Part shown: positions 58,327 through 63,598 of the stretch, one piece after another
Numbering within the stretch: the first letter of the stretch is position 1
Layout: each line of letters begins with the position of its first letter
DNA from: Caecibacter massiliensis
GTDB lineage: Bacteria; Bacillota; Negativicutes; Veillonellales; Megasphaeraceae
DNA: 64,000 bases
Reading direction: 5' to 3'
Assembly: GCA_900095875.1 (NCBI GenBank)
Contig: LT608311.1
Location: forward strand, 1,178,001 to 1,242,000
Translations under genes and position numbers: made by a program
Notes under the pieces: generated by a model
Told to the model about the DNA's origin: nothing
The model's input: only the letters and a program-made list of their open reading frames with translations
Databases searched by the model: none

Positions 58327-59706
58327 ATGTACGATACGGCAGATACCATTGCGGCGATTACGACACCGCTGGGAGAAAGCGGTATCGGTGCAGTCCGTAT
58401 CAGCGGACCCGATGCCTATGCTGTAGGAGATAAAATATTTAAAAGTAAATCGGCAGTTCCCCTGAAGGAACGCCGTGATCGTTCTATTCAGTACGGGACT
58501 ATTGTCGATGAAAATGGGACCTGTATCGATGAAGTCCTGGCCCTTATCATGAAAGGCCCTCACTCCTATACGGCAGAAGACGTATTGGAAATCCAGTGCC
58601 ATGGCGGCCGGGAAGCATTGGAATCTATCTTGCAGCTCATATTGCGCAGTGGTGCCCGCATGGCCAATCCCGGTGAATTTACGGAACGGGCCTTTGTCAA
58701 TGGCCGTATCGACCTGGCCCAGGCTGAGGCCGTCATGGATGTGATTCAGGCTAAAAGCAGGGCCGGTCTCACCAGTGCTGTAAGCCAGCTGGAGGGCCGG
58801 CTCTCCAAGGTTATCAATAAGACCCGCAAAGAACTGACCGAGCTGGTGACGCGGCTGGAAGTCATGATTGATTATCCGGAAGAAGATCTGGAAGATATTG
58901 CTGTGCCGGACGTATCCGGTGCTTTGCAGGAAATGCAGGAAAAACTGCAGCATATGCTGGAAGAATCCCAGAACGGGCGCATGATCCGCGACGGCGTCAT
59001 GGCCGCTATTGCCGGTACGCCCAATGCCGGTAAGTCGAGTCTCCTGAACCGTCTTCTTCAGGAAGAACGGGCCATCGTTACGGACGTGCCGGGTACGACA
59101 CGGGATGTATTGGAAGAATGGATTACTCTGCGCGGCGTTCCCGTATGCCTCGTCGATACAGCCGGTATCAGGGAAACGGATGATACGGTCGAAAAAATTG
59201 GCGTCAGCCGGGCCCGTCGGTATCTGGACCGGGCAGACATCATCCTGGCTGTCATAGATGGTTCCCGTCCCCTTACGGATGAAGACAAAGATATCCTCCA
59301 GTCTGCGGCAGATAAAAATGTCATTATTGTCCTAAATAAGACGGATCTGCCGTCTGTCATGACTAGCCAGGACCTGAGCACCTATGGCTTCCCAATCTGC
59401 CCCATTTCGGCCAGTACCGGGGACGGTCTGGAAGAGTTGAAGGACAGACTCCTGCAGGAAGTGTTGAAAGGCGGCTTTACCGATGGCCCCAGCGCTCTTC
59501 TGACCAATACCCGCCATATCGAACTGGTACGGCAGAGTGCAGAAGCTCTGGAACGGGCACGGCAGTCGTTGCAGGATGGAATGCCTCTGGATTGTGCTGT
59601 CATCGATATCCGTCAGGCGTGGGATACGCTGGGCTCGATTACAGGCGATACGGTTCACGATGATATTGTTGAAGAAATATTCAGCCGGTTCTGTCTGGGT
59701 AAATGA
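58327..59706 (+). CDS. mnmE: tRNA modification GTPase MnmE
   Basis: A 459-residue GTPase for wobble-uridine modification with MnmG. It has an N-terminal folate-binding domain ([16 protein letters not shown]), a central G domain ([31 protein letters not shown]), and the FCLGK C-terminus. The 127-base gap upstream holds degenerate GGTCAGTG repeats but no gene. Confidence 0.96.
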
Positions 59707-59747
59707 TAAATAGATTGCAAATGTATTGCGAAAGGGAAGGAAATTCC

Positions 59748-61634
59748 ATGTATGTAGTAGATACGTATGATGTTATCGTCATCGGTGCCGGCCATGCCGG
59801 CTGTGAAGCAGCCCTTGCCAGTGCCCGTCTGGGTGCCAGAACCTTGATGGCGACATTGAATCTTGATAATATTGCTCTTATGCCCTGTAATCCTGCTGTA
59901 GGAGGGCCGGGAAAGAGCCACCTCGTACGGGAAATCGATGCCCTGGGTGGCCAGATGGGAATCAATACGGACCTGACGTGCCTGCAGATGCGTATGCTCA
60001 ATACGGGCAAGGGGCCAGCCGTATATTCCCTGCGTGCCCAGTCAGATAAAAAACTGTATCAGATGACCATGACAAAAACACTGGAAAATCAGGATCATCT
60101 CGATGTCAAGCAGCTCATGATTACGGACCTCCTTACAAAAGACGGAAAAGTAACCGGCGTACAGACCGAACTGGGGGAAGTCTATGGCGCATCCTGTGTC
60201 ATCCTGGCGACCGGGACATATCTGAAAGGTAAAATCATCATCGGCGAATGCACCTATTCCGGAGGTCCTATCGGCCAGCGCTCGGCAGAAGATCTGTCCG
60301 GGTCGCTGATAAAAGCAGGGTTGAAACTCATGCGTTTCAAGACGGGGACACCAGCCCGGGTAGACCGGCGTACGCTTCGTACGGATGAAATGGCTGTGCA
60401 GGAAGGTGATACGGATGGTCATGCCTTTTCGTTCCTGTCAGAACGGAAAAACCGGAATAAAGAATGCTGCTGGCTGACGTTTACCAACGAAAAAACGCAC
60501 AAAATTATCCGCGATAATCTTGACCGGGCACCCATGTGCAATGGCATCATACAAGGTATCGGTCCCCGGTACTGCCCTTCCATTGAATCAAAAATCGTCC
60601 GCTTCGCCGATAAAAAGCGGCATCAGCTCTTTATCGAACCAGAAGGACAATCTACAGAAGAAATGTACGTCCAGGGCATGAGTACCAGTATGCCTATCGA
60701 TGTCCAATACGAATTCCTGCGCACCATTCCCGGGCTGGAAGATGTGAAAATCATGCGGCCCGGATATGCCATTGAATATGACTGCCTCGACCCGTTGCAG
60801 CTGACACCGTCCCTGGAAACGAAAAAAGTGAGCGGCCTGTTTTCTGCCGGCCAGTCCAATGGTACCAGCGGCTATGAAGAAGCAGCAGCCCAGGGCCTGA
60901 TTGCCGGTATCAATGCTGCCCGCAAGGTGCAGGGAAAAAATCCTTTTATCCTTACCCGTTCGGAAGCGTATATTGGCGTACTCATTGACGATTTGGTTAC
61001 GAAAGGAACGCAGGAACCATATCGCATGATGACCAGCCGCAGTGAATACCGCCTCGTCCTCCGTCAGGATAATGCCGATCTGCGTCTGACCCAGAAAGGC
61101 TATGATATCGGTCTGGTCAGTCAGGAACGGTACGACGTATTTTGTGCCAAAAAGAAAGCTATTGCTGATGGTATCGCCGCTTTGCGATCCATTTCCATTA
61201 CACCGAGCAAAGCGATGGCGGAAAAACTGGATGCTCTCGGCACGGCTCCGGTCCATACGGGCATAACGGCCTATGAATTACTGCGCCGTCAGGATCTGTC
61301 GTATGACAAACTGTGCCAGACTTTTGATCTTCCCGAACTGGATGCCGATGTCAAAGAAGAAATCGAAATCATGATCAAATACGAAGGATATATTGGCCGC
61401 CAGATGGAACAAGTAGAAAAAATGAACCGTCTGGAACAAAAACTCATGCCGGACGACATTGTGTATGCCGATATTGATACGCTGTCCGGCGAAGCGCGGC
61501 AGAAACTTGATGAAATCCGGCCCCGGTCTCTTGGGCAGGCCAGCCGTATTTCCGGCGTTTCTCCGGCAGATATTACGGCCCTTCTCATTTATCTGGAACA
61601 GTATCAGCGGGAGGGCGGCCATGTTTCAAAATGA
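59748..61634 (+). CDS. mnmG: tRNA uridine modification enzyme MnmG
   Basis: 628 residues from the ATG at 59748 ([18 protein letters not shown]), which follows GGGAAGGAAA; the frame extends upstream to overlap mnmE without a ribosome binding site. The FAD site [17 protein letters not shown] and [23 protein letters not shown] are diagnostic. It works with MnmE. Its end overlaps rsmG by 14 bases. Confidence 0.96.
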
Positions 61635-62334
61635 CCTCATCCATGCTATGGAAGCTATGGGACTTGTACTGGAAGACTATCAGATACGACAGTTCTGCCG
61701 GTTTGAAGAACTGCTCCTGGAAACGAATAAAGTCATGAATCTGACAGCCATTACCGATCCGGGTGAAGTAGCAGTCAAACACATGGCTGACAGCTTGTCC
61801 TGTTATGATGAAAGGTATTTTCCAAAGGATGCCTCCCTGCTGGATCTCGGTACGGGTGCCGGTTTTCCCGGTATTCCCCTGGCTATTTTCCGGCCGGATC
61901 TTACGGTGACTTTTTTTGATTCCCTGCAGAAGCGATTGAACTTCCTGAATGAAGTATGCCGGGAAACGGGCCTCCGGAAGGTGGCGTTCCTTCACGGGCG
62001 GGCTGAAGAAATAGCCCATCAGGAAGCATACCGGGAACAGTTTGATCTGGTGACCAGCCGGGCGGTGGCCCGCCTTTCCATTCTCTGTGAATGGGCGCTG
62101 CCTTACGTGCGGAACAATGGCTTATTCATTGCTCTTAAAGGAGCGCAATATGAGGAAGAAATCAAAGAGGCTTCCAATGCCCTGCGCATATTGGGAGGGA
62201 CACTGGAAGAAGTCCGCCCGGTAACGCTTCCCGGGCTTTCCGATAAACGGGCGGTCCTCTATATCCGCAAGAGTGGCACGAGTCCGGCTAAATACCCGCG
62301 CAAACCCAAAATGGCGGCAAAACATCCATTATAA
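61621..62334 (+). CDS. rsmG: 16S rRNA (guanine527-N7) methyltransferase RsmG
   Basis: 237 residues from the ATG at 61621, preceded by GGGAGG inside mnmG. The SAM motif [17 protein letters not shown] (about 77-93) and the VTSRAVA motif are present. Its C-terminus carries an extra Pro/Lys-rich tail ([18 protein letters not shown]) typical of Negativicutes and related forms. Confidence 0.95.
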
Positions 62335-62360
62335 AATAAAAACTTCAGGAGAAAGGGTGT

Positions 62361-63413
62361 ATGATTATGTCTTTGAAAACGTCTATAGCTGTCGTTCTGG
62401 CAGCCTGCTTTACGATGTTCAGTGCATCGGCACTGGCAGAAGAACCGCAGATCGATGCTCAGTCAGCCTGCGTCATCGATTCTGCGACGGGCAATGAACT
62501 GTATGCCAAAAATGCAGATCAGCGCATGTATCCTGGCGGTACGACTATGATGATGACCAGCATCCTTGGCGTCGAATCGGGAAAACTCGATACGGTCATG
62601 ACCGTATCCGATGCATCCCAGCAGCTGGCCGGCGATGTGAGCCGTCTCGGCATTTATCCCGGTGACAAGGTGACGTTGCGCAATGCCCTGACGGGCATGA
62701 TGACGGTCGGGGGCTGTGATGTGGCATATGATGCGGCTGTTACGGTTTCGCCGTCTCTGGACAGCTTTGTTCAGTCTATGAATGAAAAAGCGGCATCTAT
62801 TGGGGCCAGTCATACGCACTTCACCAATCCGGCCGGACTTCCTGATGAAAATCATTATTCTACGGCGAGAGACCTGGCAAAAATTGGCGCCTATGCCATG
62901 AAATCAGCCGATTTCCGGGGACTCGTCAATCATGCTTCCTTTGACATGCCCTATGCAGACAGTGGTACGAAGCATTGCGAAACGACGAATGAATTTCTCA
63001 CCAGCGGTTTTGCGGGAGCTGACGGCATCAAGACCGGTGCGACTAACGATGGCGGCCCTTGTCTGGTAGCTTCTGCTACGCGTAATGGTCATACCCTGGT
63101 TGCGTCCATCCTCAACAGCGGTGACCGTGCTGGTGATGCGGCAGCTCTCCTGACCTATGGCTTTGAACGCCTGTCGGCCCCGGCAGCTGCTGTAAAGAAT
63201 GTAACGACGGCAACGACGGCGACAGCTGCCGAAAAAGCAGCGGTTGCCGCTTCCCAGGCTGTAACACAGACTGGCCGTGCATCTAATGCACCGGCTGATG
63301 CCGATGAAGCCTATGTCCTGCGCGATGCGCCGGCAGGACAGACCTTATCCCAGATAGCCGCCCAGCAGAAACAGGCGGCCCGGATTGCTGCGGAAAATCA
63401 GAATGAAAAATAA
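62361..63413 (+). CDS. S11 D-Ala-D-Ala carboxypeptidase homologue lacking catalytic residues
   Basis: 350 residues with a signal peptide (cleavage near ALA-EE, about 26). The S11 fold is easily recognised: AQSACVIDSATGNELYAKN, TLRNALTGMM, HTHFTNPAGLPDENHYSTARDLAKIGAYAM, DGIKTGAT. The SxxK motif (usually PASTTKMMT) reads PGGTTMMMT, so both Ser and Lys are gone. The SGN motif reads GGC. Only the KTG is kept. The C-terminal extension is Ala/Thr-rich. It is probably a non-catalytic wall-binding protein. Its own ribosome binding site (AGGAG) lies nine bases before the ATG, 26 bases after rsmG. Confidence 0.87.
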   Translation: MIMSLKTSIAVVLAACFTMFSASALAEEPQIDAQSACVIDSATGNELYAKNADQRMYPGGTTMMMTSILGVESGKLDTVMTVSDASQQLAGDVSRLGIYPGDKVTLRNALTGMMTVGGCDVAYDAAVTVSPSLDSFVQSMNEKAASIGASHTHFTNPAGLPDENHYSTARDLAKIGAYAMKSADFRGLVNHASFDMPYADSGTKHCETTNEFLTSGFAGADGIKTGATNDGGPCLVASATRNGHTLVASILNSGDRAGDAAALLTYGFERLSAPAAAVKNVTTATTATAAEKAAVAASQAVTQTGRASNAPADADEAYVLRDAPAGQTLSQIAAQQKQAARIAAENQNEK

Positions 63414-63426
63414 GACAGGCTCCCTA

Positions 63427-63454
63427 TTGACAGACAGATGTTTCCTGCTATAAT
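63427..63454 (+). promoter_or_regulatory. promoter of the ZTP-riboswitch transcript
   Basis: TTGACA (63427-63432), 16-base spacer and TATAAT (63449-63454), with a TGC before the -10 (extended -10). Transcription would start about 15 bases before the riboswitch. Confidence 0.85.
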
Positions 63455-63473
63455 GAAAGAACATCAAGAAAAT

Positions 63474-63598
63474 ATGCGATGCAGGCCTGACGGAATCAAG
63501 TGGAATAACCACGTGGACTGTATCGTTTAGAAAAAGCGCCGACCGTCTGGGCAAAGATATGAAAATATGCTTTGGCCAGCCGGCCGGTGCTTTTTTTG
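63474..63598 (+). ncRNA. ZTP (pfl) riboswitch with terminator expression platform
   Basis: The outer stem GCGATGCAG / CTGTATCGT encloses GTGGAATAACCAC. It is followed by the conserved 3' part GCCGACCGTCTGGGCA, the hallmark of ZTP (pfl) riboswitches that sense ZMP/ZTP. That 3' part is also the 5' arm of a 20-bp terminator (AGCGCCGACCGTCTGGGCAA against CTTTGGCCAGCCGGCCGG) ending in seven T. Ligand binding should block termination. The controlled gene is an OFA-type transporter. Confidence 0.82.

Follow-up and report, generated by a model that had tools for sequence, protein, structure and literature searches.

The window, by which we mean the whole stretch of 64,000 nucleotides analysed, carries directly downstream of rsmG a gene for a homologue of the DD-peptidases of family S11 that has lost its catalytic serine and lysine, and this gene belongs to a lineage of pseudoenzymes that is real and under selection. 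We give roughly an even chance to the reading that the protein is a catalytically dead S11 pseudoenzyme selected for a non-catalytic job, namely the binding of peptidoglycan stem peptides together with the modulation or positioning of its paralogue. The role is probably one of binding rather than of cutting, be it stem-peptide binding or modulation of the paralogue, and we infer that the protein is exported, lacks activity, binds a ligand and has a partner.

The features of the locus are listed in Table 1. The preliminary description had reported an open frame with a good ribosome binding site, and both are present as described; a start at ATG 62367 (MSLK...) is also possible, judging from the orthologues. 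Residues L13-A14-A15-C16 of the probable signal peptide would fit a lipobox, but not every orthologue has lipobox-like surroundings at Cys16. The Pfam profile PF00768 (Peptidase_S11) matches the window protein over positions 5-237 of 239 with 148.1 bits (E 3.8e-43; cut-off, 27.6 bits), and this full-length match, together with the fold matches, places the protein in family S11 as a homologue; none of the NCBIfam equivalog cut-offs was reached. An AlphaFold2 model made from a 20-sequence alignment has pLDDT > 90 over most of the S11 domain, beyond which come a disordered linker and, at residues 329-349, a helix of low confidence. The top ranks of a Foldseek search with this model were held by 3mfd (DacB of B. 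subtilis) and by structures of the Streptomyces K15 DD-transpeptidase (1skf, 1es2-1es5, 1esi, and 1j9m). The K15 structures share the S11 fold with a TM-score of 0.82-0.85 by target length and 34-35% identity, but their chains stop at the end of the S11 domain, so that the C-terminal motif of the window protein has no counterpart in them. DacB and the PBP5/PBP6-type DD-carboxypeptidases of E. coli likewise have the S11 domain in common with the window protein (best PDB match 3mfd_B, 36% identity), whereas their catalytic motif is lost in the window protein and the PBP5-type C-terminal domain is unmatched there.

Table 1. Features at and around the S11 pseudoenzyme gene
Feature	Position	Strand	Remarks
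dnaA	53768-55387	-	
mnmG (GidA)	59703..61634	+	conserved upstream gene
rsmG (GidB)	61621..62334	+	start inferred; mechanical ORF from 61459
Ribosome binding site AGGAG	62347..62351	+	9 bases 5' of ATG 62361; from sequence
S11-fold pseudoenzyme gene	62361..63413	+	ATG 62361; 350 open codons, 350 aa
Likely signal peptide	62361..62441	+	residues 1-27, ending ...SASALA before EEP; sequence and alignment
S11 (DD-peptidase) domain	62451..63164	+	residues 31-268; profile, model, and fold matches
PGGTTMMMT, former SxxK	62532..62558	+	residues 58-66; Ser to Gly60, Lys to Met63
GGC, second motif	62709..62717	+	residues 117-119; SGC in most orthologues and K15
KTG, third motif, retained	63030..63038	+	residues 224-226
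Arg256 codon	63126..63128	+	aligned to K15 Arg248
C-terminal motif YVLRDAPAGQTL	63312..63347	+	conserved in 13/13 orthologues, dead and intact
Promoter match TTGACA-16-TG-TATAAT	63427-63454	+	perfect; directly 3' of the S11 gene
ZTP/ZMP riboswitch	63473-63559	+	RF01750, 55 bits
Terminator-like hairpin	63572-63587	+	after the riboswitch
MFS transporter gene	start ~63639		downstream of promoter, riboswitch, and hairpin

An active PBP or DD-peptidase is defined by the SxxK motif (with its nucleophilic Ser and general-base Lys), by SGN or SGC, and by KTG. Aligned with K15, the window protein has Gly60 for Ser35, Met63 for Lys38, and Gly117 for Ser96; retained are Cys119 (Cys98 of K15), Lys224-Thr225-Gly226 (Lys213-Thr214-Gly215), and Arg256 (Arg248), the last being invariant in all 20 S11 proteins aligned. 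The first two defining features are thus missing, with GGC in place of the second, and by its sequence the window protein is an S11 homologue but not an active PBP. By what is known of S11 enzymology, a protein lacking both the Ser and the Lys cannot transfer acyl groups in the PBP manner, so that formation of an acyl-enzyme by this mechanism would be impossible after the change to Gly and Met, and labelling by β-lactams is not expected. These residues bear out what had been said of SxxK and KTG in the preliminary description and favour the non-catalytic protein that it proposed. Its account of the second motif as an SGN turned into GGC holds for the GGC but not for the starting point: the usual state of the orthologues is SGC, as in K15, not SGN, so that only the Ser has been lost relative to them and GGC represents a single change.

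An orthologue was found in 13/15 genomes of the genus (that of the window, 2.65 Mb in two contigs, being one of those with the gene), and the other 12 proteins are 50-61% identical to the window protein. Seven of the 13 are intact, with PGSTTK(I/M)MT, SGC, and KTG (L020-L026, from G001, G010, G013, G006, G005, G002, and G009, respectively); both Ser and Lys are lost in the remaining six, each from a different species (Table 2). Because five species besides that of the window show the same Ser-to-Gly change along with Lys to Met or Thr, the loss in the window protein is neither a chance event nor a sequencing slip. Motif 2 is SGC in 10 of the 13 orthologues, TGC in two, and GGC in the window copy, and among the dead copies the third motif is KTG in five and RTG in one. 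Motif 1 of the dead copies still has its PG and TT, Thr61-Thr62 are invariant among orthologues, and Cys119 is present in 13/13. Two positions that are uniform in the intact copies, 227 next to KTG (Thr) and 230 (Ala), vary among the dead ones.

Table 2. Active-site motifs of the six orthologues without catalytic Ser and Lys
Genome	Motif 1	Motif 2	Motif 3	State
Window genome	PGGTTMMMT	GGC	KTG	dead
G011	PGGTTTIMT	SGC	KTG	dead
G003	PGGTTMIMT	TGC	KTG	dead
G008	PGGTTMIMT	TGC	KTG	dead
G007	PGGTTMIMT	SGC	KTG	dead
G014	PGGTTMMMT	SGC	RTG	dead

When 380 genomes of the class were searched at the DNA level with a degenerate pattern for the dead motif (one mismatch allowed), those six genomes matched and no others did; dead S11 proteins with other replacements would escape such a pattern. 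In other families of the order, the S11 proteins that we read have SxxK and SGN intact. As far as the pattern reached, then, the dead form appears confined to one genus (6/380 class genomes), which answers in the negative the question, raised in the preliminary description, of whether the loss is common to the Negativicutes. Intact motifs in close relatives, which had been named there as grounds for abandoning the proposal, do occur (in the seven orthologues above), but a real pseudoenzyme lineage is still favoured by the pattern, six dead species each having a constrained copy alongside an intact paralogue.

The invariant Cys119 and Thr61-Thr62 could be taken to mean that chemistry persists by another route, the nucleophile being supplied by the Cys (at the position of K15 Cys98) or by one Thr of the TT pair, and K15 Cys98 lies near enough to Lys38 for the two to form a NOS bridge, as seen in one crystal structure (PMC8964421). 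All three residues are, however, equally present in the intact copies, none having been acquired upon loss of Ser and Lys, and residue 63 (Met or Thr) offers no obvious substitute for the general base. We therefore regard this route as very improbable. Both residues of the Lys-Cys pair occur in the intact orthologues and only the Cys in the dead ones. K15, with GSTTK and SGC, resembles the intact orthologues in the Gly before the nucleophile position and in the motif-2 Cys. Having the Lys-Cys pair of the K15 NOS bridge, L020-L026 may be redox-sensitive DD-peptidases.

The gene had been described as selected, not decaying, and divergence among the six dead species argues for this. Between pairs of dead copies, the differing fraction is 0.11-0.30 at second codon positions and 0.52-0.67 at third positions, which are near saturation. 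At the old Ser site Gly is encoded by GGT in three copies, GGC in two, and GGG in one (GGA at the preceding Gly), and these several codons indicate that synonymous drift continued while Gly was kept. Rates were expressed as S11-domain distance over marker distance, the latter from protein distances of six flanking core proteins; the ratio was 1.49 (sd 0.18) for dead pairs and 1.33 (sd 0.17) for intact pairs, compared with 0.58 and 0.64, respectively, for the intact paralogue, all of these means being descriptive because pairs share branches. Judged by these distances, the orthologue has always been fast-evolving, and loss of the active site hardly released constraint. Of the 238 S11 columns, 85 are invariant among the dead copies and 141 among the intact ones, the dead species also being further apart. 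Codon-position divergence and rate ratios thus point to purifying selection that continued after catalytic residues were lost from an otherwise conserved fold, as is expected of a pseudoenzyme. A decaying gene caught before loss of its frame would also lack the two catalytic residues, and relative to the markers the dead copies evolve at a rate ~10% above that of the intact orthologues and more than double that of the paralogue. Yet the fast rate is found in the intact copies as well, divergence at third positions is about two- to fivefold that at second ones, and six well-separated species keep the open frame, the signal-like N-terminal segment, KTG or RTG, and the tail; decay is already largely contradicted by these observations, and we give it hardly any probability.

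The present distribution could reflect one to three losses or a single regain. A gene tree built without the catalytic columns is compatible both with monophyly of the dead copies (p-AU 0.42) and with G011 joining the intact ones (0.42). In the marker tree G011 falls inside the intact group (dead monophyly, p-AU 0.07), and the window genome and the group of G014, G003, G007, and G008 branch early. G011 has Thr instead of Met at the Lys site, which hints that its loss was separate. The codons used for Ser gave no clue to direction, being AGY nearly everywhere. Each catalytic change needs a single base (AGY to GGY, AAG to ATG or ACG), which makes parallel loss easy. The same single-base changes would serve the opposite course, in which the S11 binding protein of the genus ancestor was already dead and two point changes restored catalysis in the intact clade, and the rooted marker tree does place dead species at several early positions with the intact ones clustered. 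We nevertheless think regain very improbable: S11 proteins are ancestrally active, the motif residues that remain in the orthologue group resemble those of K15, support for the rooting and the basal branching is weak (83/82 and 84/97), and independent losses are mutationally easy. If regain were true, it would be a natural reversal of pseudoenzyme evolution inside one syntenic orthologue group.

The gene was said to adjoin the origin cluster, and it does: yidC-jag-mnmE-mnmG-rsmG lie directly upstream in this order, and dnaA/dnaN, divergently oriented, upstream of these. The order mnmE-mnmG-rsmG followed by the S11 orthologue recurs in 13/13 loci, with rsmG always the immediate neighbour. In the sister-genus genome G015 rsmG is directly followed by an MFS transporter gene and the S11 slot is empty; in G004, of the same genus, rsmG is followed by other genes. 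The G004 genome (whole, 1.6 Mb, 99% complete) has zero S11 matches, both the S11 gene and the paralogue being gone. The S11 gene came to occupy the slot in the genus ancestor or earlier, unless the sister genus lost it, and G004 lost it; members of the family can do without the role, given G004 and the empty slot of G015. On the other side of the window gene, a perfect promoter match leads into a ZTP/ZMP riboswitch ahead of an MFS transporter gene (Table 1), and we note this pairing of riboswitch and transporter as worth attention.

Only one further S11 gene, whose PASTTKIVT, SGN, and KTG are intact, occurs in the window genome, and this paralogue is the only other DD-carboxypeptidase-type gene found there among families S11, S13, and VanY. 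An intact PASTTK/SGN/KTG paralogue is present in all six dead genomes. Replacement by S13 or VanY enzymes in the dead species was considered and rejected, there being zero matches in the genus to VanY or to full-length S13, and the S13 matches obtained being short cross-matches inside S11 genes. G002 encodes a third, distant S11 protein (L045, G002:C1:192862-193644, minus strand) with PASMTKMMT and SDN, which sits on a long branch beside a Selenomonadaceae protein and was possibly acquired horizontally.

We propose that the protein is secreted and descends from a Streptomyces-K15-like DD-peptidase with an SGC-type active site, that its non-catalytic job would probably be common to the intact orthologues of sister species, and that, with the paralogue covering the chemistry, the S11 orthologue could do without catalysis and lost it, in one event or in several. 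The stem-peptide-shaped cleft keeps most of its substrate-side residues and is accompanied by a conserved tail. We suggest that the cleft, in which the KTG strand, the counterpart of K15 Arg248, and Gly-Cys in motif 2 are preserved, would bind peptidoglycan stem peptides, and that the protein with its C-terminal motif may modulate or position the only intact S11 carboxypeptidase that the cell has. Variation at positions 227 and 230 among the dead copies may mean that binding has weakened or disappeared, and weak binding of whole peptidoglycan by S11 catalytic domains of M. tuberculosis (PMC4281109) counts against such a role. It is possible, at rather less than even chance, that the selected role is unrelated to the old cleft, for example that of an envelope adaptor acting through the S11 surface and the C-terminal motif. 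That motif, YxxRxAxxGQTL, follows linkers that differ in length and sequence and is among the best-kept parts of dead and intact copies, and residues flanking KTG are changed in the dead ones; but the dead copies preserve KTG (5/6), Arg256, Gly-Cys in motif 2, and both PG and TT in motif 1, which is more than a free cleft predicts. A LysM reading of the tail, suggested by the resemblance of GQTLSQIA to GDTLSxIA, was discarded, with no Pfam match even at E 10 and one helix only in the model. Other exact APAGQT frames proved to be short, unrelated reading frames.

Non-catalytic members are well known among the M23 (LytM) cell-wall peptidases, where they are important regulators. Csd2 of Helicobacter pylori is non-enzymatic and pairs with the active M23 peptidase Csd1 (PMC5053510, PMC9507126). 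Like Csd2 and the degenerate LytM factors, the window protein would, by hypothesis, be a degenerate cell-wall peptidase beside an active paralogue (PMC5053510, PMC9507126, PMC8416486), although those belong to M23, another fold and family, and for Csd2 formation of a complex has been shown, whereas a partner of the window protein is proposed. Fungal RNase II/Dis3L2 pseudonucleases (Ssd1), unrelated to S11 in protein family and function, show scattered active-site loss in one orthologue group with the non-catalytic parts conserved, activity having been lost repeatedly after a non-catalytic function arose (PMC8097288). It is by analogy to these and to Csd1-Csd2 that a binding or modulating role may be common to dead and intact orthologues. 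We found no described non-catalytic S11 PBP in a literature search that lacked most subscription papers. What low-molecular-mass PBPs do besides chemistry is an old question that is still open because their single deletions often show little. Dead and intact orthologues at the same locus in sister species, the dead ones accompanied by an intact paralogue, provide a clean natural comparison that addresses it.
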